A stretch of 64,000 bases of DNA, taken from Peristeroidobacter soli. GTDB taxonomy: Bacteria; Pseudomonadota; Gammaproteobacteria; Steroidobacterales; Steroidobacteraceae. Position numbers and translations under genes: made by a program. The stretch covers positions 1,710,640-1,774,639 of the forward strand of contig NZ_ML142848.1 of the NCBI RefSeq assembly GCF_004138485.1, in the 5' to 3' direction. Of this stretch, positions 27,564 to 43,790 are shown piece after piece (within the stretch, counting starts at the first letter, position 1; each line of letters starts with the position of its first letter). Below the pieces are notes generated by a model. That model made no database searches and was not told the DNA's origin. It saw nothing but the letters and a program-made list of their open reading frames with translations.

Positions 27564-28517
27564 TCAGTCGATGTACAGCGAGCTGACGCTCTCTTCGTCA
27601 CGGATGCGGCGCATCGTCTCCGCCAGCAGGCCCGCCACGCTCAACTGCCGGATCTTCTGGCAGTTGCGGGCATCCGGGCGCAACGGAATCGTGTCCGTCA
27701 CCACCAGCTCATCCAGCTGCGACTGCGAGATGCGGTCGATCGCCGGACCGGACAGCACCGCGTGGGTGATGTACGCCACGACCTTCTTCGCACCGTTCGC
27801 CTTCAACGCCTCGGCCGCGTGACACAGCGTGCCGGCGGTATCGACCAGGTCGTCGATCAGCACGCAGGTCTTGCCTTCGACCTCACCGATGATGTTCATC
27901 ACTTCGGATTCGTTCGGGCGCGGACGGCGCTTGTCGATGATGGCCAGCTCGGCGTCGTCCAGGCGCTTTGCCAGCGCTCGGGCGCGCACCACGCCACCGA
28001 CGTCCGGCGACACCACCATCAGGTTGTCGTACTTCTGCTTCCACGCATCGCCGAGCAACACCGGCGAGGCATACACGTTATCCACCGGGATATCGAAAAA
28101 TCCCTGGATCTGGTCGGCATGCAGATCGACCGTCAGCACCCGGTTCACACCGGCGCTGGCGATCATGTTCGCGACCAGCTTGGCCGTAATCGGCACTCGC
28201 ATCGCCCGAGGACGGCGGTCTTGCCGTGCATAGCCGAAGTAAGGAATCACAGCGGTGATGCGTGCGGCCGAAGCGCGGCGGCACGCATCGGTCATCACCA
28301 GCAATTCCATCAGGTGATCGTTGGCCGGAGAACAGGTCGGCTGCACGATGAAAACGTCGCGACCGCGGACGTTTTCCAGCAGCTCGACCGTGCACTCGCT
28401 GTCACTGAAGCGACTGACGCTGGCCCGGCCGAGCGGCACCATCAGGTGACGCGCGATCTCTTGGGCGAGCGGCTGATTGGCGTTGCCCGTAAACACCGCC
28501 ATCGTGGCACGATCCAT
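27564..28517 (-). CDS. prs: Ribose-phosphate pyrophosphokinase
   Basis: The 317-residue protein matches PRPP synthetase throughout: [14 protein letters not shown], the flexible-loop [10 protein letters not shown], the metal-binding [29 protein letters not shown] and the PRPP loop [14 protein letters not shown]. It makes PRPP from ribose 5-phosphate and ATP. A GGAG precedes the ATG at 28517; a second in-frame ATG lies at 28502. Its upstream region carries the tRNA-Gln 3' remnant that marks the island boundary. Confidence 0.97.
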
Positions 28518-28542
28518 TCAACACTCCGACTGCAACTGCGAC

Positions 28543-28582
28543 TGGCTGGGGCGGAAGGTTCGAACCTCCGCATGGCGGGAGC
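28543..28582 (-). repeat. tRNA-Gln 3'-end remnant (island boundary, att-like)
   Basis: These 40 bases align with the 3' part of the intact tRNA-Gln at 43716-43756 with 37 of 41 columns identical (three substitutions, one gap). They include the CCA end, the acceptor strand and the T-arm with TTCGAAC. The 5' half of a tRNA is absent beyond it, so it cannot be a tRNA gene. It lies just upstream of prs, exactly where tRNA-Gln stands next to prs in related genomes. That is as expected for the original 3' end left behind after island insertion. Confidence 0.75.
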
Positions 28583-28976
28583 ACCCCGACAGGAGGACTA
28601 ACGGAATCAGTAACTTATTGATTCCACTCGCCTTTCAACCCCCTCCAGTCCCATCGACTCCCCATGGCTGGCACCAAAACTGGCAGCAGCGATAGCGGTG
28701 AACCAGTTAAAGCACACGGTCGAAAGCGGGGGCGCAATATACACGAATCCGGGCGGTCTGATGCTCCCCGCTTCAAGGATTTGTAAGGCCGGCCCCCTGT
28801 CGGAACGCCGCGGCCGGCTGCGGAAGGCATTGGCCTTCGGACAGGAGCGGGCATTACACTAAGCCCCTGTTCCCTGCCGGTGAAAACAATCCGACGATTC
28901 GAGGCAGACGACCTCATCCAAGAAGGACCGGTGGTCAAGGCTCTTGGGTCAGTCTCAACCACCTACCGAGGGCGCG
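28583..28976. other. Non-coding stretch at the left island edge
   Basis: No convincing gene is visible. It holds a GAATCA/TGATTC inverted repeat around 28604-28623, next to the tRNA remnant, and the leader of the CheB-CheR kinase gene. The prs promoter presumably lies in or beyond the remnant. Confidence 0.4.
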
Positions 28977-31900
28977 ATGAAGTCACCTATCGTCGGCGTT
29001 GGCGCCTCGGCCGGCGGATTGGAGGCAGTTTCCGAGCTTCTGGGAGGCCTGGCTTCACATCCGCGCCTGGCAATCATCGTCGTCCAGCACCTGGACCGCG
29101 CGCGTGACAGCCTGCTGCCAGAGATTCTGCGAGGGCGCACGACGCTGCCCGTCATCGAAGCCCGGGACGGGATGCCTGTCGCGCCCGATCATGTGTATGT
29201 CATTCCTCCCAATGCCACTTTGACGGTTGATGCGCGCGTGCTGAGGCTCTCGCCGCGCGCGGCCGCTGGAATACACATGCCGGTCGATGCCCTGTTTCGA
29301 TCGCTCGCAGAGGACTGCGGAGAAGCGGCGGTAGGCGTCGTTCTCTCCGGCGCCGATTCCGACGGATCGGCGGGCATGCAGGCCATAAAACACGCGGGCG
29401 GCATCACCTTCGCGCAGGATCCCAACACCGCCCGAGTGCCTGGGATGCCCCAGGCCGCCATCGAAACCGGATGTGTCGACTTCGTGCTTCCGGCTGGAGA
29501 GATTGCCTCTGAGTTGCAACGTCTCGCCGCGCACTCCTATCTCAGAGCTGCTGACGTTCCCGACGCTGGCACAGGAGAGAGCGAAGAGCGCGAAGGCGCG
29601 ACCGAGGCAGAACTGCTGCGTAGGATCTTTCGTCGGCTGCGGCTCACGCACGGAGTCGATTTCTCCGGGTACAAGTCCAGCACCTTGCGTCGCAGACTTG
29701 CACGGCGCATGGCCGTGCAGCGCATCGAAACGCTCACGGAATACACAGCATTCCTGGAGAACGACTCCGGAGAAGCCGCGGCGCTCTACCAGGACTTCTT
29801 GATCCGTGTGACCTCGTTCTTTCGCGATCCAGCCACCTTCACCGCGCTGACCGAGCACGTGTTCCCGCGCCTCGCCAGCGGGCGTTCTCCCAAAGAGCCG
29901 ATTCGGATCTGGGTGCCGGGTTGCGCGACCGGCGAGGAGGTTTATTCGATCGCCATCGCCTTGCTGGAGTATCTGGGCGATCTGTCGCCGCCGGCGGGGA
30001 TTCAGCTCTTCGGCACCGATATCAGCGAAGCCGCGCTCGAAAAATGCCGCGCGGGCGCCTATCCCGACTCCATCGCGCTCGATGTTTCCGCAGACCGGCT
30101 CCGTCGCTATTTCGTTCGGCAGAATTCTCACTACGTCATCGCGCGCTCCATCCGTGATTTATGTGTGTTTGCCCGGCAGGACATCACGCGAGACCCACCG
30201 TTCTCACGGCTCGATCTGGTGAGCTGCCGCAATGTGCTGATCTACCTCGGGGCTGCCGCCCAGGCCCGCATCATGCAGACCCTTCGATATGCTCTGCGAC
30301 CCAACGGTTTTCTTCTGCTCGGTCCGTCGGAGAGTATCGGGCAGGGGACAGAGCTGTTCGAGGCGGTCGACAAGCCACATCGGCTCTACAAGCCCGGGCC
30401 GATAGCGAGCTTCGCGGCTGCCGATCGCGCGCTCACCGGCATTCACGGTTCGATATCCGCGTCGTCGCAGCACCCAGCAGATCCGCTCATCGAGGCGGAG
30501 TCGGCCGTGCGCCATGCCGACCGACTGCTGCTCGCTCGCTACTCGCCCGCCGGCATCGTCGTCGACGATGCACTCAACATTTTGCAATTCCGCGGCGAGA
30601 CCGCGCCTTTCCTGGCGCCTGCAAGCGGGCCTCCCAGCCTGAACCTGCTCAGGATCGCGCGCCCGGAACTGCTGCTGACCGTTCCGCCCGCGATCGAGGA
30701 GGCGCGCGCGAGCGGGAAGGTTGCCCGCCGGGCAGGTTTGATCATCGAGGGGATCGGAGCGGTGAATGTCGAAGTGATTCCGCTGCGGCAGGCAGGCACT
30801 CTCGCCTGCTATCTGATCCTGCTGGAAAGCGAATCTTTCCGGACCGTTGGCCGGCGGGAGCGCTTGACCAGCACGACATCGCTCACGGAATCGGAGAAGG
30901 ACAAGCACCTCGCCGAGCTGGAGCGCGAGAACGTGGAGCTTCGTGAGTTCCTGCAGGCGACGATGGAGCAGCACGAGGCCGCCAAGGAGGAATTGAAGTC
31001 GGCGCATGAGGAGGTACTTTCGGCGAACGAGGAATTCCAGAGCACCAACGAAGAGCTGGAAACGTCGAAAGAGGAACTGCAGTCCGCGAACGAAGAGCTC
31101 ATTACGACCAACGACGAACTGCGGGAGCGCAATCGCGAGCTCGCCGTTCTCAACATGCAGCTGGCAAGTGCACAGCAGATGTCCGAGCGGGCGCACGCGT
31201 TGGCAGAGGCCATTGTGGAGACGGTGCGCGAGCCGCTCATCGTCCTCGACCCCGACCTGAACGTTCTGCGCACCAACAGGGCCTTCACCGCGCAGTTCGG
31301 CGTAACGGTCGAGGATATGAGAGGCCGGTCGCTCGATGTACTTGGCGTCGCGCTCGAGGACCAGACGCTGCACCAGCGCCTGTCCGCCATTCTCACCGAC
31401 GGGCCGACCTTCACCGACTTCGAGGTCGTCATGCCGCACGGTCGGGACGGCCGTCGCATCCTCTCGCTCAGCGCACGAAAGATCGCAGCAGACGCCAATC
31501 GCATCGAGCTCATCCTGCTGGCGATGGAGGATGTCACCGAGAAGAGCGCGCGAATCGAGATGGTGCGCAAGGAACTGGTGGAGTTACGACGCAACCTCGC
31601 TCATGCCGGTCGAGTCACGGCGCTTGGCGAGCTCGCCTCCGGCCTGGCTCACGAGCTTCGTCAGCCCCTGACCGCGATCCTGACCGATGCGCAGGCGGCG
31701 CAGATGCTGCTGCGTGGACCGGATCCCGATCTGGTGGACTTGCCGGAGATCCTCGGCGAAATAGTACGCGACGCGCAGCGTGCGGCGGGAGTGATCGACC
31801 GATTGGGCAAGATGCTGAAGCGTCGGCCGATGGCACTCGCACGAATGTCCGTGGAGGACTTGCTGAAAGATGTCACCTTGCTGGTCCACGGCGACACCGT

Positions 31901-32303
31901 GAGGCGAGGAATATCGCTGCAGACGAACCTCGGCTACCGCTCCATGTTCGTCCAGGGCGACAGAGTGCATTTGTCCCAGGTGCTGATCAACCTGATCATC
32001 AACGCGATGGACGCAGTCGACGGCCTCGATGACGCACGCCGCCGTGTCATCCTGCAGGCTCGCACCAACGCCGAGGGTTGGATCGAGATCGGCGTGTCGG
32101 ACGCTGGCCCCGGCGTTCCGCCTGAAGCGATGAAGAAGATCTTCGAGCCCTTCTTCACGACCAAATCCTCCGGGATGGGAATGGGATTGGCCATTTCTCG
32201 CACCATCATGGAAGCCCACGACGGCAGACTCTGGGCGGAGAACAACCCGGAGATTGGCGCAACCTTCTGGTGTGCGCTGCCCGCGTCCGCCGAGCAGGCG
32301 TGA
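28977..32303 (+). CDS. CheB-CheR-PAS-histidine kinase fusion protein
   Basis: The 1108-residue protein starts at the ATG at 28977, four bases after GAGGG. Domains in order: CheB methylesterase (GASAGGLEAV serine, VQHLDR histidine, SGADSDGSAG aspartate); CheR methyltransferase (TSFFRDPATF, VPGCATGEEVYS, CRNVLIYL); a PAS-like segment; a coiled coil of EEL/NEE repeats (about residues 650-735); a second PAS; and a HisKA/HATPase pair (SGLAHELRQPLTAIL, INLIINAMDAVDG, SDAGPGVPPEAMKKIFEPFF, GMGMGLAISR). No receiver domain and no chemotaxis or flagellar genes are nearby. It is more likely a general or stress signalling hub than a chemotaxis enzyme. Confidence 0.92.
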   Translation: MKSPIVGVGASAGGLEAVSELLGGLASHPRLAIIVVQHLDRARDSLLPEILRGRTTLPVIEARDGMPVAPDHVYVIPPNATLTVDARVLRLSPRAAAGIHMPVDALFRSLAEDCGEAAVGVVLSGADSDGSAGMQAIKHAGGITFAQDPNTARVPGMPQAAIETGCVDFVLPAGEIASELQRLAAHSYLRAADVPDAGTGESEEREGATEAELLRRIFRRLRLTHGVDFSGYKSSTLRRRLARRMAVQRIETLTEYTAFLENDSGEAAALYQDFLIRVTSFFRDPATFTALTEHVFPRLASGRSPKEPIRIWVPGCATGEEVYSIAIALLEYLGDLSPPAGIQLFGTDISEAALEKCRAGAYPDSIALDVSADRLRRYFVRQNSHYVIARSIRDLCVFARQDITRDPPFSRLDLVSCRNVLIYLGAAAQARIMQTLRYALRPNGFLLLGPSESIGQGTELFEAVDKPHRLYKPGPIASFAAADRALTGIHGSISASSQHPADPLIEAESAVRHADRLLLARYSPAGIVVDDALNILQFRGETAPFLAPASGPPSLNLLRIARPELLLTVPPAIEEARASGKVARRAGLIIEGIGAVNVEVIPLRQAGTLACYLILLESESFRTVGRRERLTSTTSLTESEKDKHLAELERENVELREFLQATMEQHEAAKEELKSAHEEVLSANEEFQSTNEELETSKEELQSANEELITTNDELRERNRELAVLNMQLASAQQMSERAHALAEAIVETVREPLIVLDPDLNVLRTNRAFTAQFGVTVEDMRGRSLDVLGVALEDQTLHQRLSAILTDGPTFTDFEVVMPHGRDGRRILSLSARKIAADANRIELILLAMEDVTEKSARIEMVRKELVELRRNLAHAGRVTALGELASGLAHELRQPLTAILTDAQAAQMLLRGPDPDLVDLPEILGEIVRDAQRAAGVIDRLGKMLKRRPMALARMSVEDLLKDVTLLVHGDTVRRGISLQTNLGYRSMFVQGDRVHLSQVLINLIINAMDAVDGLDDARRRVILQARTNAEGWIEIGVSDAGPGVPPEAMKKIFEPFFTTKSSGMGMGLAISRTIMEAHDGRLWAENNPEIGATFWCALPASAEQA

Positions 32304-32558
32304 AATACAGCCGCTGCCACGTGTCGTACGCGCCTCGTGCCGGGACGACAGCCATCACGCCTCGCTTCGGCCGCCTTTCGTGATCGCCCTGCTCGAGCAG
32401 AGGAAACAACTCCGTTTCTTCCCGTTGCCCCCTTCTGTTCTTTGGCTCGAGTAAACACATTGCGAGCAGGAACTTCGCTTCTTCCTGGTCGTTAGTCCGG
32501 CACACGGGAGGTTCTCCATGCGGTCATCTCGATCTCAGCCATCCGCGAGGATCTCTCC

Positions 32559-32951
32559 ATGCTCACACCATTTTCATTGTCGACCGCAGTGCTTGCCGGA
32601 ATCCTTACAGTCACCGCAGTGAATGCGCAGACGACCGAGTCGGCAACCAAGCACGCAGCCGCCGACAATACCAAGGCGAACGCGACAGACCGGAACACGG
32701 CTGCGAAAACGCCGGGCGATCAATCGAACGACAAGGACGCAATTGAAGTTACTGCCGGCATTCGCAGAGCCGTGCTGGACGACAAGTCGCTGTCGACTTC
32801 GGCGCACAACGTCAAGATCATGACTGACGGAGATGTCGTAACGCTGCGCGGCCCGGTGGAAAGCGCCGACGAGAAGAAGCGCGTCGAGGCGCTGGCGGTG
32901 AAAGTAGCGACAGGCAAGCAGGTGCGCAACGAAATTTCCGTTGCTCGCTGA
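32559..32951 (+). CDS. Exported BON-domain protein
   Basis: The 130-residue protein has a signal peptide ending near VNAQ, a low-complexity Thr/Ala/Lys/Asp linker and one C-terminal BON domain (VTAGIRRAVLDDKSLS, then VKIMTDGDVVTLRGPVESADEKKRVE). BON domains are associated with envelope stress proteins such as OsmY. It is followed 44 bases later by a stress-protein-like gene on the same strand, probably as an operon. Confidence 0.85.
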   Translation: MLTPFSLSTAVLAGILTVTAVNAQTTESATKHAAADNTKANATDRNTAAKTPGDQSNDKDAIEVTAGIRRAVLDDKSLSTSAHNVKIMTDGDVVTLRGPVESADEKKRVEALAVKVATGKQVRNEISVAR

Positions 32952-32995
32952 GCCGAAGCTGCCACCTGAATTTTCTCAATTATCGAGGATCATGT

Positions 32996-33694
32996 ATGAA
33001 GAACGCAGTCTATGGCATTGCCAACACCCCGCAGCAGGCCGAATCCATTGTCACCCGGCTTCAGTCGCTGGGTATTCAGACTTCCGACGTCTCGGTTCTT
33101 TTCCCGGACAAAGCAGGCACGCGAGACTTTGCCCATGAAAAGAACACCAAAGCTCCCGAAGGCGCGACCACCGGCGGACTCGCCGGCATGGGCGTCGGCG
33201 GTGCCTTGGGCCTGCTCGCGGGCATCGGCGCGCTAGCCATTCCCGGCGTCGGTCCTCTGATAGCGGCCGGTCCCATCATGGCAGCCCTCAGCGGCGCAGC
33301 CGTTGGCGGAGCAACGGGCGGCCTCATCGGCGCCCTGGTCGGACTGGGCATTCCGGAATTGGAGGCCAAGCAATACGAAGGGAAGGTTCGAGCAGGCAAC
33401 ATTCTGATTTCGGTGCACACGGAGAATAGCGAGCAGCGTTCGCGCGTCAGGCAGGCGCTCGAGGAAGCCGGTGCTACGGACGTAAGCTCCACAAGTGAAG
33501 CCAGCGTCCCCAAGGACTCGAGCAAAAAATCGCGCGTCTCTGAAAGAGTCGTCAAGCCGGAGTTCAAAGGCGAGGTGACGCGGGGAGCCAGCGACACGAG
33601 CGATATCCGTGCTGACGAAGTGGATGGCGCGCGCGAGCCTGCAACTGGCGACCGCTCGGCTATTCCGACGAGCCCGACTCGACGCCCGCTGTAA
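32996..33694 (+). CDS. Glycine-zipper membrane stress protein (GSP17M/DUF1269-like)
   Basis: The 232-residue protein starts with KNAVYGIANTPQQAESIVTRLQSLGI, like the general-stress-protein 17M-type fold. A glycine-rich hydrophobic hairpin follows (GGLAGMGVGGALGLLAGIGALAIPGVGPLIAAGP and GAAVGGATGGLIGALVGLGIP, about residues 58-120), then EAKQYEGKVRAGNILISVH and a charged tail. Related proteins are found in stress clusters with BON proteins. A GAGGATC lies before the ATG. The biochemical function is unknown. Confidence 0.75.
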   Translation: MKNAVYGIANTPQQAESIVTRLQSLGIQTSDVSVLFPDKAGTRDFAHEKNTKAPEGATTGGLAGMGVGGALGLLAGIGALAIPGVGPLIAAGPIMAALSGAAVGGATGGLIGALVGLGIPELEAKQYEGKVRAGNILISVHTENSEQRSRVRQALEEAGATDVSSTSEASVPKDSSKKSRVSERVVKPEFKGEVTRGASDTSDIRADEVDGAREPATGDRSAIPTSPTRRPL

Positions 33695-33763
33695 CACAGC
33701 AGCGTAACCAGGTCGGAGCGCCAGCGGCGGCGCTCCGACTGCAAGTTAAAATGGATGTTCCGA

Positions 33764-33920
33764 TTACTTGAGTTGCATGCCGTTCTTGACGGAGGTCACG
33801 CCGTTGACGTTGCGCCACTTTGATTGCTGCGTCCATATCCTCGCGTGAGCTCACGAAGCCGCTCAGTTGCACCACACCCTTGAACGTTTCGACGTTGATC
33901 TCGGCAACGCGCTGATCACC
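33764..33920 (-). pseudogene. BON-domain protein remnant, frameshifted
   Basis: On the minus strand one frame reads VAEINVETFKGVVQLSGFVSSREDMDAAIKVA, and another completes the domain as VNGVTSVKNGMQLK and a stop at 33764. The BON consensus would be restored by two extra bases near 33808 (GTGGCG-CGC-AAC-GTC), so a 2-base deletion has broken the frame. The N-terminal part and signal peptide are missing as well. The rest of the 33695-34104 gap holds only the promoter region of the desaturase gene. Confidence 0.75.
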
Positions 33921-34026
33921 AAACCAATGCCGCTATCGAGGCTGTACGAGGTACTGGCAGCGTATTTCAACGCGCAGCGTACGCAGTGAGAGCCATTTCA
34001 GCGTCGGGTGCTTGAACAATCCGGCA

Positions 34027-34047
34027 TATGTGCGCCACCGCACCGAG
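34027..34047. promoter_or_regulatory. Dyad motif TATGTGCGCC-A-CCGCACCGAG (copy 1)
   Basis: This 21-base motif contains GTGCG/CGCAC arms with a 4-base spacer and lies 57 bases before the desaturase ATG. A second copy (one substitution in 21) lies at 38027 before the DUF4398 gene. It may be an operator for one of the Crp/Fnr-type regulators of the island. Confidence 0.45.
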
Positions 34048-34104
34048 GCAGCGGGGGCATCGGCCCATCCTCGATAGCGACGCAACCAACGTTGACCTAT
34101 CTGT

Positions 34105-35163
34105 ATGGGATCTCTGCGAGAGCCGCCAGTATCCACCGCCGACTTGAAAGACGTGCTCGTGGCACATCAGAACGCCTCCACGAAGCGCGCGCTATGGCAG
34201 GTCGCGAACACCTTCCTGCCGTACTTTCTTTTGTGGCTGGCGATGTACTGGGCACTGGAGGTGTCGCTGTGGCTTACCGTGCCGCTCGCCGTCCTCTCCG
34301 GTGTGTTGCTGGTGCGCATTTTCATCATTTTCCATGACTGCACACACGGTTCCTACTTTCGTTCCCGGCGCGCGAACGACATTGTCGGTTTCATCGCCGG
34401 CGCCTTGACCTTCAGTCCGTACCAGCACTGGCGCTGGGAGCATTCCATACATCACGGCAGTTCCGGGAATCTCGACCGGCGCGGGACCGGCGACATCTGG
34501 ACCATGACGGTCGAGGAGTATCTGGGCGCGTCGCGTCAGCAACGTATTCTGTATGGGCTGGCGCGCAATCCACTGGTGCTGTTCGTATTCGCGCCGCTGT
34601 TCGTCTTCGTGATCAAGCAGCGCTTTGCGTCCGGGAATGCGCAACGGCGACAACGCCACTCGGTGTGGTGGCTGAACGTGACGCTGCTGATCAGCACAAC
34701 ACTACTCAGCTCGATATTCGGCCTGGCCGGGTACCTGCTCATTCAATCGATCGCCATGACGGTGGCGGGCGCGACCGGCCTGTGGCTCTTCTATGTCCAG
34801 CATCAGTTCCAAGGCGTCTACTGGGAACGCAACGATAAGTGGGACTACACGGCGGCCGCGCTGCGCGGCAGCTCCTACTACAAGCTGCCGAAGGTGCTGC
34901 AATGGATCTCCGGGAACATCGGCTTTCATCATATCCACCATCTCAGTCCGCGCATTCCCAATTACAACTTGCAGAAGTGTCATGAGAGCGACCCGCGATT
35001 CGCAGCGGTCACGTCGCTGTCGCTGCTGTCGAGCCTGCAGTCGCTGAAATTCCGCTTTTGGGACGAGCAGACGAAGGAGCTCGTCGGCTATGCGCACATT
35101 CGCAAGCTGCAAGCAGACCGGCGCGCGGACGGCCAGCCGGGCGACGCACGTCCAGCCACTTGA
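34105..35163 (+). CDS. Membrane fatty acid desaturase
   Basis: The 352-residue protein has several hydrophobic segments and the three His boxes of membrane desaturases: HDCTH (about residue 83), HSIHH (about 115) and HHIHH (about 275). These bind the di-iron centre that puts double bonds into acyl chains. The spacing fits DesA/delta-12-type acyl-lipid desaturases. It converges with the Crp-type gene (stop codons 1 base apart). Cold or envelope stress control is plausible from the neighbours but not shown. Confidence 0.9.
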   Translation: MGSLREPPVSTADLKDVLVAHQNASTKRALWQVANTFLPYFLLWLAMYWALEVSLWLTVPLAVLSGVLLVRIFIIFHDCTHGSYFRSRRANDIVGFIAGALTFSPYQHWRWEHSIHHGSSGNLDRRGTGDIWTMTVEEYLGASRQQRILYGLARNPLVLFVFAPLFVFVIKQRFASGNAQRRQRHSVWWLNVTLLISTTLLSSIFGLAGYLLIQSIAMTVAGATGLWLFYVQHQFQGVYWERNDKWDYTAAALRGSSYYKLPKVLQWISGNIGFHHIHHLSPRIPNYNLQKCHESDPRFAAVTSLSLLSSLQSLKFRFWDEQTKELVGYAHIRKLQADRRADGQPGDARPAT

Positions 35164-35164
35164 A

Positions 35165-35887
35165 TCAATAATACTGAGTAATGGCCGGCAGCAGCCGGTC
35201 GAATTCCTTCTTGACCACGGCATAGCATTCGCAGGTCCGTGCCTCCAGGCCCGCGCGATCGAGCACCTTGATACGGCCACGGCTGTATTTGATCAGTCCG
35301 GCGCTTTGCAGATGACCTGCTGCCTCCGTCACGCCTTCACGACGCACGCCCAACATATTGGCGATCAATTCCTGGGTCATCACCAGCTCGTTGCCGACCA
35401 GACGATCCAGGCTCAGCAACAGCCAGCGGCACAGTTGCTGGTCGACCGAGTGATGTCGATTGCACACCGCGGTTTGCGCCATTTGTGTCAGCAGCGCCTG
35501 CGTGTACCTCAGCAGCACATGCTGCATGGGTCCACCGAGTGTGAATTCTTCCTTGAGAAACTTGCCTTGCCATCGATAGGCGTAGCCGGCACTCTGCACC
35601 ACCGCCCGGCTCGGAGTGGTTTCGCCGCCCATGAAGAGCGACACGCCGATGATCCCTTCGTTGCCGACCACGGCAATTTCCACTGAGGAACCGTCCGCCA
35701 ACGTATAAAGGAGCGAAACGATCGCAGTGGTGGGAAAGTACACGGCCCGCTGATGGCTGCCGGATTCATACAAGGCTTCTCCCAGCGGCAACTCCACCAG
35801 TTTCAGCCTTTTGCTCACGCGCTCCAGATCCTCCGCCGGCAACGCAGCCAGAAGATAATTCTGACGAGGATCGTGAGCTGCCGTCAT
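35165..35887 (-). CDS. Crp/Fnr-family transcriptional regulator
   Basis: The 240-residue protein has a cyclic-nucleotide-type beta barrel (residues about 15-120, with VYFPTTAIVSLLYTLADGSSVEIAVVGNEGIIG) and a C-terminal winged helix (MTQELIANMLGVRREGVTEAAGHL). No FNR-type N-terminal cysteine cluster is present, so it should not bind a 4Fe-4S centre. The C-terminal LEARTCECY motif is shared in form (CxCY) with the second Crp-like protein at 37107. It is transcribed leftward. Confidence 0.9.
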   Translation of the reverse strand: MTAAHDPRQNYLLAALPAEDLERVSKRLKLVELPLGEALYESGSHQRAVYFPTTAIVSLLYTLADGSSVEIAVVGNEGIIGVSLFMGGETTPSRAVVQSAGYAYRWQGKFLKEEFTLGGPMQHVLLRYTQALLTQMAQTAVCNRHHSVDQQLCRWLLLSLDRLVGNELVMTQELIANMLGVRREGVTEAAGHLQSAGLIKYSRGRIKVLDRAGLEARTCECYAVVKKEFDRLLPAITQYY

Positions 35888-35985
35888 CGAGAGGGCCCGA
35901 GCATAGTTGAGTTCCGCGCCACCCGTTTATGTTCGGTATCGTACACAACTTCACGTCGGCGCAGCAGCGAATTGCGAGGCGAGGC

Positions 35986-36001
35986 GTAAGTTGCAACTTA
36001 C
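35986..36001. promoter_or_regulatory. 16-base perfect palindrome upstream of the Crp-type gene
   Basis: GTAAGTTGCAACTTAC lies about 100 bases before the start of the leftward Crp/Fnr-type gene and 10 bases beyond the stop of the PAS gene. Crp/Fnr proteins bind palindromes of about this length, so autoregulation is a reasonable guess; a terminator for the PAS gene is the alternative. Confidence 0.45.
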
Positions 36002-36010
36002 AAGTGCAAT

Positions 36011-36559
36011 TTATGTTGGCGCGCTCGCCACATAGCTGAATCCCTGCACTCGCCCGTCTCGAAGCACCACCGGCTCGATGTCGAAAGTTCCCCAGTACGG
36101 GCTTGCTCCGTCAGGCCGGCGTCGCCAGGCTTGCCGCGCGATGCGGCCATCGATCACCGCCGCACGCAAATCGCGATAGGGTTGTCGTCTTGCAACTTCC
36201 TCGGAGACGTAGAACAGGGACATATGGCGATCCACGACTTCCTCGGAGGCGTAATCGCGTCCATTCGGGCTGCCGTACCAGCACACCACGATTCCCGTCT
36301 CGTCCAGCATGGCCAGCGAGCTCGATTGCGCACGCGCGGTCATCGCCGTGTGCAGCCGTGCGCCGCGTTTCAACAACGCTCGTCGTCGCCACAATCGAAT
36401 CCTCTCGGAGCGGCGGTCAGCGGGCCTGGCCAGATCCCACTTCGATATCGACAACGATGACCAACCCGCCTGCGAGTCACCGTTGCCCTCCGCACGGGCC
36501 GACATCAGATCGGGCTGCACATCTGTAGCGATTGGGACAATGTCCCGATTGAATTTCAT
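36011..36559 (-). CDS. PAS-domain protein
   Basis: The start at 36559 is chosen for its strong AGGAGGAG ribosome site six bases upstream; the product has 182 residues. Residues about 85-180 form a PAS fold (GIVVCWYGSPNGRDYASEEVVDRHM, then the RRPDGASPYWGTFDIEPVVLRDGRVQGFSYVA core). The N-terminal half is Arg-rich and unassigned. There is no kinase or output domain, so it may be a stand-alone sensor or a piece of a larger kinase. It is most similar in style to PAS modules of histidine kinases. Confidence 0.7.
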   Translation of the reverse strand: MKFNRDIVPIATDVQPDLMSARAEGNGDSQAGWSSLSISKWDLARPADRRSERIRLWRRRALLKRGARLHTAMTARAQSSSLAMLDETGIVVCWYGSPNGRDYASEEVVDRHMSLFYVSEEVARRQPYRDLRAAVIDGRIARQAWRRRPDGASPYWGTFDIEPVVLRDGRVQGFSYVASAPT

Positions 36560-36722
36560 ATGCTCCTCCTGCCGCGTACTGTGCGCTGGCGACCTCTCTC
36601 GATCAGTGCGCTGGCGAACATTGCACATTGACGGCCCGGTTGCGGTACATGCTGTGCTCAGCATCGCGAATGATGAACGTCTTGCGATTCCCGTGCGAAC
36701 CGCCAGCCAACAAAAGGTCAGC

Positions 36723-36863
36723 ATCCGGATGGGCGATCACCTGATCGAGTATCGCGTACAGCCGCTCATCGCTCACCCATCTGCGGGCGGGTGTCAGTAG
36801 CCCGAGAATGACTCCCGCAATCGTGGCATGAATGCCCGAGGCATCGATGGCGAGCCACAGGAG
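36723..36863 (-). pseudogene. NhaA Na+/H+ antiporter fragment
   Basis: The minus strand reads LLWLAIDASGIHATIAGVIL, then GLLTPARRWVSDERLYAILDQVIAHPD. This matches the conserved middle of NhaA, where a helix carrying SGIHATIAGV is followed by a cytosolic loop. The flanking parts of the antiporter, including the catalytic Asp-Asp region, are absent on both sides. The fragment lies inside a longer open frame (36603-37103) whose other parts I do not recognise. The remainder of the 36560-37106 interval contains nothing else I can support. Confidence 0.7.
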
Positions 36864-37106
36864 CATACCATCGCAAAATATGCCGAGGCCGCTTCGCTCA
36901 TTGAGTTCCCTCAGAACCTCATCGAAGCGCTCGAACGGCACTACGCCGGCCAACTCCTGCGGCACGATCGCCAAGCACGCATCACCCGAGTCGATGTCCA
37001 AGTCGGTGGATGCATCCGACGTCGATCCGCCGAACTTGAGAAAATGAAGGCGGCGGTCTCGGCACTCATCCGGACATGGGCCGCCAGGTCCGCACGGTCG
37101 CACGCC

Positions 37107-37907
37107 TCAGCCGGTAAGCTTATGCGCCGTCCGCCGTGTCGAGGCCTGGTCGAGGCGACGAGGCCTCGACACGGCCAATGGGCCCAAAGCGAGCTCATAC
37201 ATGTCGTTTGATCCTCGATAACATGCGCACGATGCCAGCTCGAGCGCAGGCCCGTCCAGGATAGTGATGGCGCCACGTCGGTAGTCGATCAAACCTTCCT
37301 CTCGCAGCGAGTTTGCGGCATTCGTAACCCCCACCCGCCGCACGCCGAGCATGTGTGCCAGGAACTCCTGCGTGACATGAAACTGATTGCCGCGCACCTG
37401 ATCGCGGTTCAGCAGCAACCGCCGCGCCAGACGAGCTCGCACTTGGTGATAGTGCGAACAGGCCGTCGTCTGTGCCAATTGTCCCATCAACACGTACACG
37501 TAGCAGTTCAGCAACCGGCGCAAGGCGATGTTCCTCCGCAAATGCCGCTGAAACACGGCGGCACCGAGCCGCCACGCCGTCCCGGACCGCTGGACTATCG
37601 CATGCTGCGCGGAAGTATTGACGCCCAGGATGAGCGACGAGCCCAGCATGCCCTCGTGACCGACACTACCGACTTCCAGGCGCGATCCATCACGCAGCGT
37701 GGTTACCAAGGAGATGATGCCGTCGGTCGGGAAATACACATGCGTCATCAACTCGCCCGACCCGCAGATCGCCTCGGCTGAACGCAGCTCGACCCGCTCG
37801 AAGTCCGCGACCAAGCGCTGCCGGTCCGGCCCGGCCAATGTCGCCAGCAGACGGTTCTCGCCCGCATTTTGTTTCAAAGAAACCAATGAACTCTCGCGAC
37901 AGGGCAA
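37107..37907 (-). CDS. Crp/Fnr-family transcriptional regulator (second copy)
   Basis: The up to 266-residue protein has the effector barrel (THVYFPTDGIISLVTTLRDGSRLEVGSVGHEGMLG) and a winged helix (VTQEFLAHMLGVRRVGVTNAANSLREEGLIDYRRG), then LELASCACY. Start codons available are TTGs at 37907, 37886 and 37877; GAGAG before 37886 favours that one. The last about 30 residues are encoded by a large inverted repeat and look non-native, so the ancestral stop may have been earlier. It is only distantly similar to the regulator at 35165. Confidence 0.88.
   Translation of the reverse strand: MPCRESSLVSLKQNAGENRLLATLAGPDRQRLVADFERVELRSAEAICGSGELMTHVYFPTDGIISLVTTLRDGSRLEVGSVGHEGMLGSSLILGVNTSAQHAIVQRSGTAWRLGAAVFQRHLRRNIALRRLLNCYVYVLMGQLAQTTACSHYHQVRARLARRLLLNRDQVRGNQFHVTQEFLAHMLGVRRVGVTNAANSLREEGLIDYRRGAITILDGPALELASCACYRGSNDMYELALGPLAVSRPRRLDQASTRRTAHKLTG
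37134..37174. repeat. 14-base perfect inverted repeat within the Crp-type gene tail
   Basis: CCGTGTCGAGGCCT and AGGCCTCGACACGG are perfect complements separated by 13 bases. They encode the C-terminal SRPRRLDQASTRR stretch. The hairpin could act as a terminator or be an inserted repeat unit. Confidence 0.6.
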
Positions 37908-38000
37908 GAAGATGTTTCAGCCTCGCGCCGAGGCTACGCGCACCGAAGCCATCGCGATGTACGTTAGCGCACACTCGATGGATTGTTCCACGCCCGCTCG

Positions 38001-38047
38001 GCGATGCGCCATCGCGCGTATCCACCTATGTGCGCCAACGCACCGAG
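38001..38047. promoter_or_regulatory. Paired dyads upstream of the DUF4398 lipoprotein gene
   Basis: GCGATG-CGC-CATCGC (38001-38015) is followed by the second copy of the 21-base motif TATGTGCGCC-A-ACGCACCGAG (38027-38047, dyad GTGCG/CGCAC). The latter differs from the copy at 34027 by one base. The sites end 83 bases before the start of the next gene. Confidence 0.45.
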
Positions 38048-38130
38048 ATCCCAAGAGCGGCGGCGCAATCTCACCGGCAGTAGATGAGCTGCCGACTCGG
38101 CAGGCCTCGACCACAACGGAGATAATCTCA

Positions 38131-38574
38131 ATGCGCCTCTCCTCGGCTGCTGTAGCAAATGTTTACTCGCGATTGGTTGTTGCAACACATGTCCACCGAA
38201 AGAGTGCAGCGCTGGCCCTTGGCGTGAGCCTGCTCGCGACGCTCGGGGCGTGCACCAACACGTCGGCGCTCACGAAGGAGCGAGTTGCCCAAAGCGACGC
38301 ATCGGTGCAGCAGGCACAACAGACCGTGGGCCGGTCGGAAGCCGGCGCGATAGAACTGCAGCAGGCCAGAGACAAACTGAGCGTAGCCCAGGCTGCGCTC
38401 GCCAAAGACCAGCCGCAGGAGGCGGAGCACTCGGCCGCGCAGGCGCACCTGTACGCCGAGCTTGCGATAGCGAAATCGCAGAGCGCCAGCGCGCGCAAGG
38501 CCGCTGACGAAGTGCTCGCCAGCGTCGAGATCTTGCGCACCGAAGCCGAGCGCACCTCGCCGACGCAACGCTGA
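38131..38574 (+). CDS. DUF4398-type lipoprotein
   Basis: The 147-residue protein starts at the ATG at 38131 behind GGAGATA. A hydrophobic segment leads to the lipobox LLATLGAC. The mature part is an Ala/Gln/Glu-rich helical hairpin (VQQAQQTVGRSEAGAIELQQARDKLSVAQAAL, DQPQEAEHSAAQAHLYAELAIAKSQ) typical of DUF4398. Such proteins usually stand next to an OmpA-like lipoprotein, as here (34 bases downstream), and are thought to work together at the envelope. The long N-region before the hydrophobic segment is unusual. Confidence 0.8.
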   Translation: MRLSSAAVANVYSRLVVATHVHRKSAALALGVSLLATLGACTNTSALTKERVAQSDASVQQAQQTVGRSEAGAIELQQARDKLSVAQAALAKDQPQEAEHSAAQAHLYAELAIAKSQSASARKAADEVLASVEILRTEAERTSPTQR

Positions 38575-38607
38575 TCCATCCCCAATCATATGCATGAGGT
38601 TACGGAC

Positions 38608-39420
38608 ATGAAGTTCAACAAGCGCATCGTGCTGAGCATCGCGGTAGCCGCCATACTGAGCGCGTGCAGCGCCACCCCCGAGCACAACGAAACGCTGGAA
38701 CGAGCGCGGACGCTGGTGCCGGAAATCGAACGATCGCCGCGCGCGGGAGTAGCGGCAGCCGATATCGCCAACGCCCGGGCTTCACTGGATGCGGCGAATC
38801 GTCTCGCCGAATCCAAGAGCAGAAAAAACGATATGGAGTTCGAAGCCACGAACGCCGTGCTCAGCTCACAAATCGCCAACGAGAAGATTCTGACCGCGCA
38901 GGCCAACGAGCAAGTCGCCGCTGGCACCGCTCAGCGCCAGGCGGTTCTGACTCAGGCGCGCGAACGCGACGCGCAGCGCAGTGCCGATCATGCCAAGTCT
39001 CTCGAGGCGGAGCTGGCGGATATGAAACTGCAGAGGACCGACAGAGGCCTGGTCCTGACTCTTGGCGATGTGCTGTTCGACACCGCGCAAGCGACGTTGA
39101 AGCCGAGCGCCGACGCGCCTCTCGATCGGCTTGCCACGGCCTTGAAAGAGCAACCCGATCGCAAAGTGCTCATCGAAGGCCACACCGACAACGTGGGCTC
39201 GGACCAGAACAACATGGGCCTGTCGGAACGTCGAGCTCAGTCCGTGCAGATGGGCCTGACTCAGCGCGGCGTGGATCGCAGTCAGATCACTGCGATAGGC
39301 AAAGGTGAGAACTTCCCCATCGCCAGCAATGACAGCGCCGCAGGCCGCCAGTCGAACCGTCGGGTCGAACTGATTTTCACCGACGGCGCCGCGCATGTCG
39401 CTGCGGAATCAGGCCGGTGA
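38608..39420 (+). CDS. OmpA-family lipoprotein with DUF4398-like N-terminal region
   Basis: The 270-residue protein starts at the ATG at 38608 (GAGG nine bases upstream) and has the lipobox AAILSAC. Residues about 25-145 are a helical DUF4398-like coiled region (VPEIERSPRAGVAAADIANARASLDAANRL). The C-terminal OmpA domain binds peptidoglycan (LTLGDVLFDTAQATLKPSA, VLIEGHTDNVGSDQNNMGLSERRA, GRQSNRRVELIF). It probably tethers the outer membrane to the cell wall. It forms an operon with the upstream DUF4398 lipoprotein. Confidence 0.9.
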   Translation: MKFNKRIVLSIAVAAILSACSATPEHNETLERARTLVPEIERSPRAGVAAADIANARASLDAANRLAESKSRKNDMEFEATNAVLSSQIANEKILTAQANEQVAAGTAQRQAVLTQARERDAQRSADHAKSLEAELADMKLQRTDRGLVLTLGDVLFDTAQATLKPSADAPLDRLATALKEQPDRKVLIEGHTDNVGSDQNNMGLSERRAQSVQMGLTQRGVDRSQITAIGKGENFPIASNDSAAGRQSNRRVELIFTDGAAHVAAESGR

Positions 39421-39486
39421 CCGCCCTGCTGGCAGGAGGACGCTGCCGCCTTCGCAATGGACTGTTCGCACGCCGGAGCACTATCC

Positions 39487-40809
39487 ATGATCGACACGAG
39501 CACTACGAAACGATGGAGTCGACACCCCGACTATTACATCCCGGCACATACGTTACCGCAGCGGACGTCCCCTCCGAATCTGCGCGCCGAGGCCGCGGCG
39601 ATCTGCGAGTTGTCGCAAGCCCTTGCCGAAGACCCAAGCGCAGCCGTCCGATACCTGCTGGACTGCGCGCAAGATCTTTGCGGCGCAGGCAGCGCCGGGT
39701 TGAGCCTCGTCCATCTGAGTCAAACCGGTGAGGCAACCATACGCTGGGAAGCCGTCAGTGGCGTGTTATCCGCGCACGAGACTACCGCCCTGCCACGAGA
39801 CAGCAGTCCTTGCGGCCTCTGTTTGGATATTGGAATCGCCATTGTTGTCTCACGGCCTCAGCGCATGTTCGACCAGCTGGCCGATAGCCCACCGCCCATT
39901 GCCGAAGTCCTGACCATTCCACTGTACGACGGCGCACGAAAGCCGCTGGGCACGCTCTGGGTGGCACATCACGACAGCCAGGCGCACTTCGACCGCGACA
40001 ACGTGCGTATCGCAGAACAACTGGCGGCACAACTGGCACTGGCACTGAAGCTGCAGGAGCAAGCCAGCGACCACGCCAACGCGCTGGCCGTGTTCGAGTC
40101 GCACCAACGGGCTCAGCAAAATATGCTCACCTACGATCTGTATGAAGAGCGCTCGCTATTCGAGCAGGCGGAAGTCGAGAATCGGCAAACACTGAGGTTC
40201 AAAGACGCGCTGATCGCGGAAGTGCATCACCGCGCCAAGAACACGCTGCAGATAGCTTCCAACCTGCTGACCATGCAGGCACGAGCAAGCTCATCGACGC
40301 AGGTGCGCGACGCTTTGCTGGATAGCGCAGCCCGCCTGCATGTCCTGGCAAAGGTTCACGAGTTGCTGTACGCGAGCGCCAACAGCACGCAGCGCGTACT
40401 CATGCCACAGCTCTTGCAGTCACTCGGGAGCGCGTTTCGGGAATCGTTCGGTCGCGCGCACCCGCACGTGACGTTGGACATCGAATGCGATCGAATGGAG
40501 CTGTCCGCCCAGATCGCGGTCCCGCTGGCACTGCTCGTGAACGAAGCTGTAACCAACGCATACAAACATGCGTTTACAGACGAATCCCCGGGCATGATTG
40601 CCGTGGCGCTACACCGCACGCGCGAGAACGCCTTGTCGCTTCGCATCGAAGACACTGGCAACGGCTTTACTTCGCCCAAAAACGGCGATGAAGGCCTGGG
40701 ACTGACGCTGATCCGAACCTTCGCGACTCAACTGTGCGGAACGCTCGTTGTGACACATAGAGACGCCGGCACGGGCACGCTGGTCGCGCTCACGATCGGC
40801 GATCACTGA
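39487..40809 (+). CDS. GAF-domain sensor histidine kinase of the HisKA_2/HWE type
   Basis: From the ATG at 39487 the product has 440 residues; an upstream in-frame start lies at 39457. A GAF-like domain (CELSQALAEDPSAAVRYLLDCAQDL to IPLYDGARKPLGTLWVAHHD) is followed by a helical linker. The HisKA_2 phosphoacceptor box is EVHHRAKNTLQIASNLL, and a HATPase domain follows (LALLVNEAVTNAYKHAF, IEDTGNGF, GLGLTLIRTF). It is a soluble cytosolic sensor kinase. No response regulator is adjacent. It follows the OmpA-like gene by 66 bases. Confidence 0.9.
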   Translation: MIDTSTTKRWSRHPDYYIPAHTLPQRTSPPNLRAEAAAICELSQALAEDPSAAVRYLLDCAQDLCGAGSAGLSLVHLSQTGEATIRWEAVSGVLSAHETTALPRDSSPCGLCLDIGIAIVVSRPQRMFDQLADSPPPIAEVLTIPLYDGARKPLGTLWVAHHDSQAHFDRDNVRIAEQLAAQLALALKLQEQASDHANALAVFESHQRAQQNMLTYDLYEERSLFEQAEVENRQTLRFKDALIAEVHHRAKNTLQIASNLLTMQARASSSTQVRDALLDSAARLHVLAKVHELLYASANSTQRVLMPQLLQSLGSAFRESFGRAHPHVTLDIECDRMELSAQIAVPLALLVNEAVTNAYKHAFTDESPGMIAVALHRTRENALSLRIEDTGNGFTSPKNGDEGLGLTLIRTFATQLCGTLVVTHRDAGTGTLVALTIGDH

Positions 40810-40850
40810 CGATCACTCGTCGCGGCTCAGCTTGAAATCGCCTGACGATT

Positions 40851-41159
40851 GGATTTCCGGGTTACAGCGTGTATGCGGCGAGCAAGGCGACGTTGCACGC
40901 ATTCGCACGCGGGTGGCTCAACGAGCTCAAGGGCAGGAACATCCGGGTGAACGTGCTGCACCCAGGGCCGATCGCCACACCGATGCAGGACCAGGTTCTC
41001 ACCGAGGAGGCAAGGCAGATGTTCGAATCGCTGATCCCGCGGGGAAAGATGGGTCGTCCCGAGGAAATTGCGGCGGCCGCGCTGTTTCTTGCTTCAGACG
41101 ATTCGAGCTTCGTGAATGGAGTGGAGTTGTCGGTCGACGGCGGCTTCTCGGCCATCTGA
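40851..41159 (+). pseudogene. Short-chain dehydrogenase/reductase, C-terminal fragment
   Basis: The frame reads GFPGYSVYAASKATLHAFARGW, with the catalytic YxxxK, and continues to RVNVLHPGPIATPM and the SDR-typical C-terminus SSFVNGVELSVDGGFSAI. The NAD(P)-binding N-terminal half is missing, so only the last 100 residues survive. It starts abruptly after the kinase gene, which suggests a deletion or recombination junction near 40850. Confidence 0.85.
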
Positions 41160-41173
41160 TGCAGGAGGGTCCG

Positions 41174-41480
41174 ATGTACGACTCCACCAGGCTTGTTGAG
41201 TTGAGCCGATTCGCACGAGTTCATGCGGGCTCGACTGTGATGGATGTATGGCCTGGCAGTGGCGACTGGACCCGCCTGTTTTCCGACATCGTCGCTCCCG
41301 AGGGACGCGTCTACAGCTTCGTGCCGGCCGAGCTCGCCCATTTCAAGAGCGATCCGGTCGGCCAGATGCGGGCGCTGGCAAAGGAGCCGGAGCGAGCGAA
41401 TGTGCAGGTTGTTTCAGCGGACCTCGTGGCGCTGCCGGAGAGTTTGCAAACGCCCGCAGAGCTGCGACACCTCTCGGCAT
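41174..41480 (+). pseudogene. SAM-dependent methyltransferase, N-terminal fragment
   Basis: The ATG at 41174 follows a good GGAGGG site. The frame gives YDSTRLVELSRFARVHAGSTVMDVWPGSGDWTRLFSDIVAPEGRVYSFVPAEL, which is the first Rossmann part of a class I methyltransferase (motif DVWPGSGDWT). After about 100 residues similarity ends, and the frame runs into the HipA fragment region. The C-terminal half is deleted. Confidence 0.7.
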
Positions 41481-41511
41481 CGGGACTTTCTGCTTGCAAC
41501 GGAGCATCTGA

Positions 41512-42336
41512 GAACAGTACTTCCTACGCGAAGGTCAGCTGTACCACCCGGTTGGCAACACGCCCTCGACCTGGCTTTTGAAGCCAGATCATGAGGACAA
41601 AGACAACTGGCCGAGTTCGGTCGCCAATGAATACTTCACGATGCGGCTCGCCGCGCATCTGGGGCTGCCCGTGCCCGAAGTTGCGATCCGCTTCGTTCCC
41701 GATCCCGTGTATCTCATCCAACGATTCGATCGAGTCCACGACACCGAGCCGGTACAGCGCCTGCACGCCATCGATGCCTGTCAACTGCTAGGCCTCGACC
41801 GCCAATTCAAATATCAGCAGGCGGGCGTCGATGCGCTCATCGCCTGCGTCGACCAGTGTGGGAATCCGGCCCGTAGCCGTATCAACATCTTGCAGTGGGC
41901 GCTCTTCAACCTGCTCACCGGGAATGCCGATGCGCACCTGAAGAATCTGTCCTTCCTTGTGAGACCCTCCGGGATTGAGCTGGCACCATTCTACGATCTC
42001 GTATCCACCGAGAGCTATCGCACCTCCGCCGACAACGATCCACGTTGGCCCCATCGCGAACTCACCATGCGCATCGGCAACGCCTCAACCTTTGCCGAGG
42101 TGAGTGCCGAGAACTTCTTCACATTCGCAGATCAGCTCCGCGTGAATCGACGCGCCAGTACGAGACTGCTCGATGACTTCACCCGCACTATCGACGGGGC
42201 TGCCACCGAGCTCTACCGGGCGCATGAAGCTCTGCCAGTACCGCAGAATCAGCGCGCAGGTCAGCTTCGCGCACTGCGAACGATCCACATCGTAGTCATT
42301 CGAGAGATGATCGATCGATTGCGGCCAAAGCTGTGA
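41512..42336 (+). pseudogene. HipA-like kinase toxin, C-terminal fragment without antitoxin
   Basis: The frame opens after a stop at 41509 and reads YHPVGNTPSTWLLKPDHED, then ANEYFTMRLAAHLGLPVPEV. It carries the HipA kinase core ALFNLLTGNADAHLKNLSFL (catalytic NADAHLKN) and LAPFYDLVST, and ends at 42336. The N-terminal about 130 residues, including the first HipA domain, are missing. No ATG stands at the fragment start and no HipB gene is nearby. A truncated but possibly still folded kinase domain; most likely a remnant. Confidence 0.8.
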
Positions 42337-42362
42337 GTAGTGCCGCCGGTCAGCAGGTTGGC

Positions 42363-43024
42363 ATGCGTAGCAAGTGGTTCACTGGCGGAGTCGTTGCGGC
42401 GCCTCGCGGCAGAATCCAATTCGATTTTGTTCTGGACGGCATCCGCTACCGTCGATCAAACGGCCGCCCTCGGAAACCAACCTTCGACGAGCACCTCGTC
42501 CAATGCGAAGCACGTCTGGGGCGAGGCGCAGGGAAACTACGATGAGTTTCGGTTCTTCACGGGACTGCGGCACTCGGAGGAAATTGCCCTCGTGCTCTCC
42601 GATGTCGACCTCGTCAACGGTGTTATCAGCGTCAACCAGGCTCGAGTCCATGGCATCGATCGATGCCAGACCAAGACCGGCGAAGATCGACGCGTCGAAC
42701 TCTGCCCCCCGAGCGCTTGCTGTTTTGACAAGACAGCTTCGCCTGCGAGCCGCTAGGCAGATCGCCCACGACCATGTCTTCTTCCAGGATTGCGGTGAGC
42801 CCATTCGCGATCTGCTCTGTCCCGCCATCCGGTCGCGCAAGAGCCTGCGCTCGCTGAAGCTGCGTCATCGCCGGCCCGACGTGGCACGCCACACGTCCGT
42901 GAGCTGGCACCTCATGCTCGGCAAGAATCTTCTGTGGGTGGCCAGGCAGCATGGGCACAGTATCGTGACGACACTGCGCAACTACTCGGGTCTTTCGCAA
43001 GCGTTTCTTCAAATCCGTAATTGA
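42363..43024 (+). pseudogene. Tyrosine site-specific integrase, multiply frameshifted
   Basis: Pieces in three frames match one integrase family. The N-terminal arm-binding part is SKWFTGGVVAAPRGRIQFDF (from 42363). A short PPSETNLRRA piece follows in another frame. YDEFRFFTGLRHSEEIALVL (from 42539) holds the first catalytic Arg. The C-terminal RHTSVSWHLMLGKNLLWVAR, QHGHSIVTTLRNYS, with the Arg/His and Tyr region, lies in the second frame again. The central core-binding part is deleted. It lies about 700 bases from the intact tRNA-Gln, the standard place for an island integrase. Confidence 0.85.
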
Positions 43025-43099
43025 TTTTGATGAGAACCGGGCCGTTATAATTATTTTTAGGCCATAATAATCGAACTTGTCGCCCTCCAGGGGATTCCC

Positions 43100-43463
43100 A
43101 TGGCGTCCAATTCGATCGGATACGGATGGCTCGTCGACCGCTATGGCTTGAGCGTTACGCAACCATGCCTGGCGTTATCCCGATCTCACACGGCAGGTTA
43201 CGTTTATTTCGAGCTCGCTCGAAGAAACGATCGAACGTGAAATGTACGCCGAAGCCTTGTATCTGCAGCAGCACGGACGGGCACGTGCGCGCCTGAAGAC
43301 AATCATCGAGGGGCCGGACGGCACACTCGAGCGCATCATCCGATCCATTCGAGAATCTCGGGGAACGGTCAGCGGGAAATTGCGCGCCGAATATCCGATC
43401 CTCCAGCGCGAAGAGATCGCTCAGGATGTCGTTACCGCGATTCGCGAGGAGTTTCCGTGGTAG
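43100..43463 (+). pseudogene. Fic-family-like protein remnant with internal deletion
   Basis: An ATG at 43100 behind AGGGGA starts ASNSIGYGWLVDRYGLSVTQP, which resembles the N-terminus of Fic-type proteins. From 43170, in another frame, WRYPDLTRQVTFISSSLEETIEREMYAEALYLQQ runs to a stop at 43463 and resembles their C-terminal helices. The central FIC motif (HPFxxGNGR) is nowhere to be seen. The family call is tentative; the broken state is clear from the frame change and short length. Confidence 0.5.
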
Positions 43464-43715
43464 ACGGATTGAGCGCCGCTTGCGGCAGAACTGCGAAATG
43501 ACGGCCATAGCTCCAGCCTGCAAGGTGAACTCCGCAACCGTTCGACCGACCGCCCTTCTACGAACGAAACCGCATCGACATCCCAAGATCTGGCAGTGAT
43601 TCAGCCAGTACCGATAACGATAAAGGGGCCGGAGGAGCTGTCCTTCGCGATCGACGACGCGAGGATACGAATCCCAAGTGTTGGTTCGATTAGGGGAAGT
43701 CGACTTCGGGAAGGT

Positions 43716-43790
43716 TGGCTGGGGTGGAAGGATTCGAACCTCCGGATGGCGGGATCAAAACCCGCTGCCTTACCACTTGGCGACACCCCA
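43716..43790 (-). tRNA. tRNA-Gln (anticodon TTG)
   Basis: The minus strand folds as a complete cloverleaf. The acceptor is TGGGGTG/CACCCCA with discriminator G and an encoded CCA. The D-arm contains AAGTGGTAAGGC. The anticodon stem GCGGG/CCCGC has loop TTTTGAT, giving TTG, and the T-arm is GGAGG-TTCGAAT-CCTTC. It stands upstream of the island and downstream of ispE, and its 3' part is duplicated beside prs. Confidence 0.95.

Follow-up and report, generated by a model that had tools for sequence, protein, structure and literature searches.

The interval between prs and ispE in Peristeroidobacter soli is very probably an old genomic island targeted to a tRNA gene, with an ancient insertion on the side of its prs-proximal terminus and a cargo that has since been turned over. 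The window, the whole 64,000-nucleotide stretch analysed here, lies inside a 2.09-Mb contig of a 9.37-Mb genome assembled in 17 contigs. The core flanks are a ribose-phosphate pyrophosphokinase gene (27564..28517, minus strand) and a second gene (43829..44704, minus strand), which we take to be prs and ispE, the names used in the initial annotation. The former is 97% identical to prs of two same-genus relatives, G001 and G011 (P. agariperforans KA5-B, NZ_RYFW01000004.1), and its second-best match within the host genome reaches only 34%; the latter is 95% identical to IspE of G001. ARAGORN finds a single tRNA in the window, the intact tRNA-Gln(TTG) adjoining ispE (43716..43790, minus strand), which is the target gene. 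A displaced and decayed 3' end of this tRNA lies 25 bp upstream of prs (28543..28583, minus strand). Fragment and gene align over 42 columns, 38 of them identical, with three mismatches and one gap; the initial annotation was right to call the fragment a degraded 3' copy, and its figure of 37 of 41 columns is corrected. A 701-bp query containing the tRNA matches only itself and the prs-side fragment in the host genome (E 1.4e-7). A 16-base pattern of the shared end, with up to two mismatches allowed, occurs at these two window sites only, and two matches were obtained in 0 of 100 shuffles. The intact tRNA beside ispE and the accessory block of about 15 kb between it and the prs-side fragment are thus as first described.

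Base composition differs in the direction expected of an island, and the signal is weak: GC content is 61.2% in the interval, compared with 63.2% outside it, and 15.1-kb stretches outside range from 62.7 to 63.9%. Such a small difference would suit a second tRNA end produced by rearrangement or assembly error and not by site-specific integration, as would the draft contigs that end at this tRNA in some genomes (G081, for example). This explanation is nevertheless highly improbable, given the position of the window inside its 2.09-Mb contig, the same terminus beside prs in three other genomes, and an integrase relic beside the tRNA.

Empty sites are found in relatives. In 94 of the 106 distinct ones read, ispE, tRNA-Gln and prs directly adjoin one another; the relatives were drawn from 29 whole-genome loci and the best 80 of 574 matches of an IspE search in GTDB genomes, with three genomes common to both sets. 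For the whole-genome set, IspE was searched in 60 genomes and matched in 44, the host's own included; loci were read for 30, leaving 29 relatives. In 23 of these 29 nothing else lies between the three genes, four are split (G001, G010, G011 and G023), and the contig of G005 stops 134 bp past ispE. Among the best 80 of 574 GTDB matches, 73 are contiguous, two more have prs within 800 bp, one is G011 again and four end too soon. For the earlier statement that these genes adjoin in Pseudomonas, the comparison covered one Halopseudomonas locus (L187), which is contiguous. The comparison suggested by the initial annotation therefore yields strains in which prs, one tRNA-Gln and ispE adjoin, and the genes of the island are no constant feature of this locus in relatives (23 of 29 loci, and 73 of the best 80 of 574, without anything between). 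No contiguous relative with an extra tRNA-Gln fragment beside prs was found among the 23 whole-genome loci that are contiguous: in 18 of these genomes the fragment matched once, at the tRNA, and in five it matched nothing at that sensitivity. In the same-genus genome G008 (86% identity in ispE and prs) the site is empty, the tRNA lies 26 bp from prs, and the final 12 bases ahead of prs are those of the window. Both a regenerated tRNA with its displaced fragment and an empty site in relatives, as looked for in a genomic island, are thus present.

Filled sites differ widely in size. Within the genus, the split intervals measure 35.9 kb in G001 and 79.4 kb in G011 and exceed 41 kb in G010, whose locus is spread over two contigs. 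In G023, of another genus, tRNA-Gln and prs lie 21.5 kb apart (L050, L069; contig C117); a tRNA-Gln fragment beside prs was not found there, and the contig has no Pfam integrase match. The site is probably also occupied in G016, of a further genus, because 1 kb of DNA without prs follows the tRNA-Gln (L266, C164) and a second tRNA-Gln 3' end of 47 bases lies on a separate 3.3-kb contig (L267, C65). Genome G132 has two prs copies, each adjoining a tRNA-Gln end at a contig end (L270, L271), reflecting either a duplication or a mixed assembly.

The letters of the tRNA bear on the direction of displacement. Positions 6 and 66 of the gene, which form a base pair of the acceptor stem, are C6/G66 in 11 of 12 same-genus relatives. 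The intact tRNA-Gln of the window and that of G008 have T6 and A66; the prs-side fragment has G at 66. A G66 as usual in the genus is expected of a displaced original, and the letters agree with a fragment that predates the 3' half now found in the intact tRNA, in support of the earlier proposal that integration took place at the 3' end of tRNA-Gln(TTG) and that the prs-side copy is probably the ancestral end. The T6/A66 change may have come with an element.

The following course of events is proposed. (i) A tyrosine integrase would have inserted a circular element, by recombination, in the 3' half of tRNA-Gln(TTG). (ii) The element would have brought a replacement 3' half, so that the ispE-side gene stayed whole. 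(iii) The original 3' end would have been pushed to the far side, beside prs, and would have decayed there. (iv) This insertion, whose prs-side terminus is common to four species, would be old, and its cargo would have turned over since. (v) Part of the present cargo is a cluster of regulator, envelope and desaturase genes that the genus has at other loci too.

The age of the insertion is read from the prs-side terminus. A 248-bp query of this end was run on 148 genomes. Beyond its tRNA part, the terminus occurs in four of the 148, namely the genome of the window (G000), G001, G011 and G010, which are the same-genus genomes with a scarred and filled interval. The prs-side copies of the three relatives are 83–85% identical to the query; three internal copies in those genomes and one partial copy elsewhere in G001 were also recovered. 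This partial copy (L130 9573-9678, G001:C3; 82% over 107 columns) lies 0.7 kb from an integrase gene whose neighbour we take for dusA. Seven copies were aligned, four beside prs and three internal; each internal copy follows the integron integrase gene intI or what is left of it. The two groups diverge upstream of the stretch that all seven share. The four copies beside prs therefore look like orthologues, and the insertion appears to predate the split of the four species. As the terminus is common to four species while the contents differ, an old insertion with turned-over cargo is suggested. The initial reading of the locus is refined to that extent: integration at the tRNA 3' end stands, and a fresh, single island does not. 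In core-gene trees the four species and G008 form one clade (support 100), within which the placement of G008 relative to G010 has little support (45 and 47). The empty site of G008 may thus be original or the outcome of a later loss.

Two sequence features mark the terminus. A near-palindrome (28604..28623, no strand assigned) is present at the locus in four of ten same-genus genomes, exactly the scarred ones. It recurs in G001 (L226, G001:C7:17459) with GTGGCA repeats and a sequence resembling a tRNA 3' end, and in G011 (L227, G011:C9:131757) near tRNA-Arg. GTGCCA-type direct repeats (28670..28686, minus strand) occur, with small changes, in all seven aligned copies. Similar repeats flank five tRNA-adjacent integrases, and those of the terminus are candidate integrase arm sites. 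Neither the prs-side terminus nor the G011 intI region matches an Rfam family at E<=1. A structured RNA was rejected for the terminus, which folds no better than shuffled sequences (z -0.14), and searches for the terminus in plasmid and phage records gave no match.

The enzyme expected of such an island, a site-specific tyrosine integrase, is present as a broken relic only (42312..43003, plus strand). Its pieces match the open frames of four tRNA-adjacent relatives (best E 1e-51) at residues of about 5–54, 236–300 and 299–401; the reading frame changes along the relic, and its middle part is lost. The decayed integrase reported beside the intact tRNA is thus real; the Pfam integrase model has no match in the interval of the window. 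The C-terminal frame of the relic recurs at six other loci in 60 genomes (E<=1e-10), five of which adjoin a tRNA: Ser, Met three times, and Val with Asp. The 3' ends of those five tRNAs lie 172–213 bp from the match edge and face the C-terminal side, in the same orientation as in the window; the sixth locus has no tRNA within its flanks. The relic was also considered as an intI and rejected, since the G011 intI matches nothing in the window at E<=1e-3. With its integrase broken, the island can probably no longer move unaided.

Four points count against the island reading: the relic lies about 0.7 kb from the tRNA, compared with 170–215 bp in its relatives; the tRNA-side arm of G001, G010 and G011 is unrecognisable in the window; the GC difference is small; and the island may have been lost from G008. 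The distant relic and the missing arm suggest that the tRNA end was rebuilt or is part of a second element. The interval may accordingly be a composite of two or more tandem insertions fused by deletion, with an older terminus at prs and a younger, integrase-bearing insertion at the tRNA, a finer version of the island explanation to which we give a little less than an even chance. Tandem tRNA-Gln scars in G001 (one), G011 (one) and G010 (two) favour it, as do a prs-side terminus that resembles those of relatives while the tRNA-side arm does not, and the gene fragments from unrelated families close to the integrase relic. The window retains no internal tRNA-Gln fragment, which speaks against a composite.

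The cargo of the old tRNA-targeted island begins with a fusion of CheB, CheR, PAS and histidine kinase domains (28944..32303, plus strand; Pfam CheB, CheR, PAS, HisKA, HATPase_c). A BON-domain gene (32559..32951, plus strand; Pfam BON) follows, whose homologue in G001 is 87% identical and lies away from this site, and then a weak YflT-like gene (32996..33694, plus strand; Pfam YflT at 22.8 bits, below the cut-off of 26.2), whose 84% homologue in G001 adjoins the BON gene. Next come a DesA-like fatty acid desaturase (34105..35163, plus strand; Pfam FA_desaturase; NCBIfam DesA at 438 bits, under the cut-off of 500) and two Crp-type regulators, Crp1 and Crp2 (35165..35887 and 37107..37907, both minus strand; Pfam HTH_Crp_2 and cNMP_binding in each). 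Between the regulators lies a fragment of a Na+/H+ antiporter gene (36603..37103, minus strand; Pfam Na_H_antiport_1, 48 residues only). The remaining genes, all on the plus strand, encode a DUF4398 protein whose true start is probably later (37699..38574; Pfam DUF4398, residues 196-271), an OmpA-family lipoprotein-like product (38590..39420; Pfam OmpA), a GAF-domain histidine kinase of the HisKA_2/HWE type (39457..40809; Pfam GAF, HisKA_2, HATPase_c), a C-terminal fragment of a short-chain dehydrogenase (40869..41159; Pfam adh_short_C2, profile positions 142-236 of 236) and a HipA-like C-terminal domain lacking its start (41578..42336; Pfam HipA_C, 146 bits). The antiporter and dehydrogenase fragments and the startless HipA-like gene point to decay.

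Part of this cargo is shared within the genus. The G010 interval has homologues of the OmpA and DUF4398 genes, the two Crp-type regulators and the desaturase, with amino-acid identities of 92% for the desaturase and Crp1 and 75% for OmpA. The regulator, envelope and desaturase cluster recurs, whole or in part, at other loci of at least G011, G001 (two), G008, G010, G012 and G007, the loci having been found through Crp1 only. The GAF kinase is present in several of those copies, and the BON and YflT-like genes lie beside one G001 copy; the CheB-CheR kinase was not found among the copies located through Crp1.

The insertion parted prs from ispE and the tRNA, and the terminus contains a candidate promoter. 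A block of 36 bp (28712..28747, minus strand) is identical in the four prs-side copies (36 of 36 columns), compared with 140 of 207 columns in the rest of the terminus; the internal copies match it at 31, 30 and 25 of 36. The longest invariant run, 38 columns, was reached in one of 20000 column shuffles, a statistic for a block picked after the alignment had been viewed, in sequences that share descent, whereas shuffling ignores kinship. No sigma-70 consensus was found in window positions 28400-29100, and the promoter idea is drawn from conservation and a TATATT-like stretch. The block could now serve as the prs promoter, a suggestion we put at two chances in five or thereabouts.

In three relatives the same site holds integrons between tRNA-Gln 3' repeats (L033, L034, L035). 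Besides the prs-side copies, internal tRNA-Gln 3' fragments number one in G001, one in G011 and two in G010. The first unit of G011 (L034 1972-13185) measures 11.2 kb, has tRNA 3' repeats at both ends and contains little beyond intI (489.5 bits against the TIGR02249 cut-off of 265) and 18 attC matches, all on the same strand at spacings of 0.24-0.9 kb, the composition of a chromosomal integron. Its other mechanical ORFs of at least 80 residues run opposite to intI in 16 of 18 cases, and the Pfam integrase model matches intI alone. Between 20 and 40 kb of the G011 interval, no cassette repeats were seen. In G001, intI is truncated and accompanied by five attC matches, beyond which lies a weak sixth (E 0.006); in G010 there are two intI, both broken, and 17 attC matches. 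The attC model was built from 13 sites (ten of G011, three of G001) that match by construction, and its 46 matches include five second-strand duplicates.

The window itself carries neither part of an integron: none of the 46 attC model matches (E<=0.05) falls in it, and no intI was found in the host genome at E<=1e-40 (one is present in 44 of 148 genomes). Descent of the window island from a G011-type integron-bearing unit, with later loss of the integron, is on this account improbable. It would explain why the prs-side terminus is homologous to the G011 terminus 0.2-0.3 kb after intI (84% over about 209 bases), but the prs-side and intI-side copies differ upstream of the shared stretch.

The intI enzyme is not favoured as the one acting on the tRNA. 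Direct repeats of 34-49 bases are not a known product of intI, and a tRNA-Gln fragment lies nearby in only two of the 30 intI loci read (46 matches listed), both at this locus. At four of those 30 loci (L084, L085, L094 and L097) an intact tRNA (Gln-CTG, Met, Thr and Met, respectively) stands about 0.5-0.75 kb beyond the intI 3' end, with its own 3' end facing intI. Many of the available contigs break off close to intI. A joint reading can be offered tentatively, and we regard it as unlikely in all its parts together: the genus would keep integrons at tRNA-Gln as site-specifically inserted, partly tandem units (tRNA 3' end, cassette array, intI, 200-bp terminus, tRNA 3' fragment); whole chromosomal integrons, as the sparse 11.2-kb unit of P. 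agariperforans would suggest, would have arrived and accreted through a tRNA-type integrase that either worked in trans or has since disappeared; and the prs-side terminus would now be the prs promoter. Among the open-access titles and abstract openings listed, none describes an integron flanked by tRNA repeats, and no paper on tRNA-Gln with ispE and prs was found.

For the old tRNA-targeted island, the locus offers a clear insertion with comparative support from one genus: sites that lack the insert, an old insertion common to four species, and scars in tandem. Should the integron reading be true, a chromosomal integron could relocate without a transposon or plasmid, and this would be a locus for testing that. 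If the terminus drives prs, the end of an element has become useful to its host.

Three known systems invite comparison. With tRNA-targeted islands the window shares a regenerated tRNA at one end, a displaced 3' fragment at the other and a tyrosine integrase relic beside the tRNA; it differs in that the integrase is broken, the terminus is common to four species and prs has possibly adopted that terminus. CIMEs (PMC5704250) are elements that have att sites without integration genes. The successive tRNA-Gln scars in G001, G010 and G011, and units without a tRNA-type integrase, resemble the tandem accretion described there, the first unit of G011 being at most a putative CIME; the units of three relatives differ in containing an integron, and cis mobilisation is only putative here. 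The G011 unit is like a chromosomal integron in its intI, its 18 attC sites on one strand and its ORFs mostly opposite to intI, and unlike one in being flanked by directly repeated tRNA 3' ends; none of this is present in the window. The window island is of the ordinary kind, a tRNA-Gln island that has decayed and whose prs-side end is old and shared with relatives, and the same site elsewhere in the genus has collected integrons.
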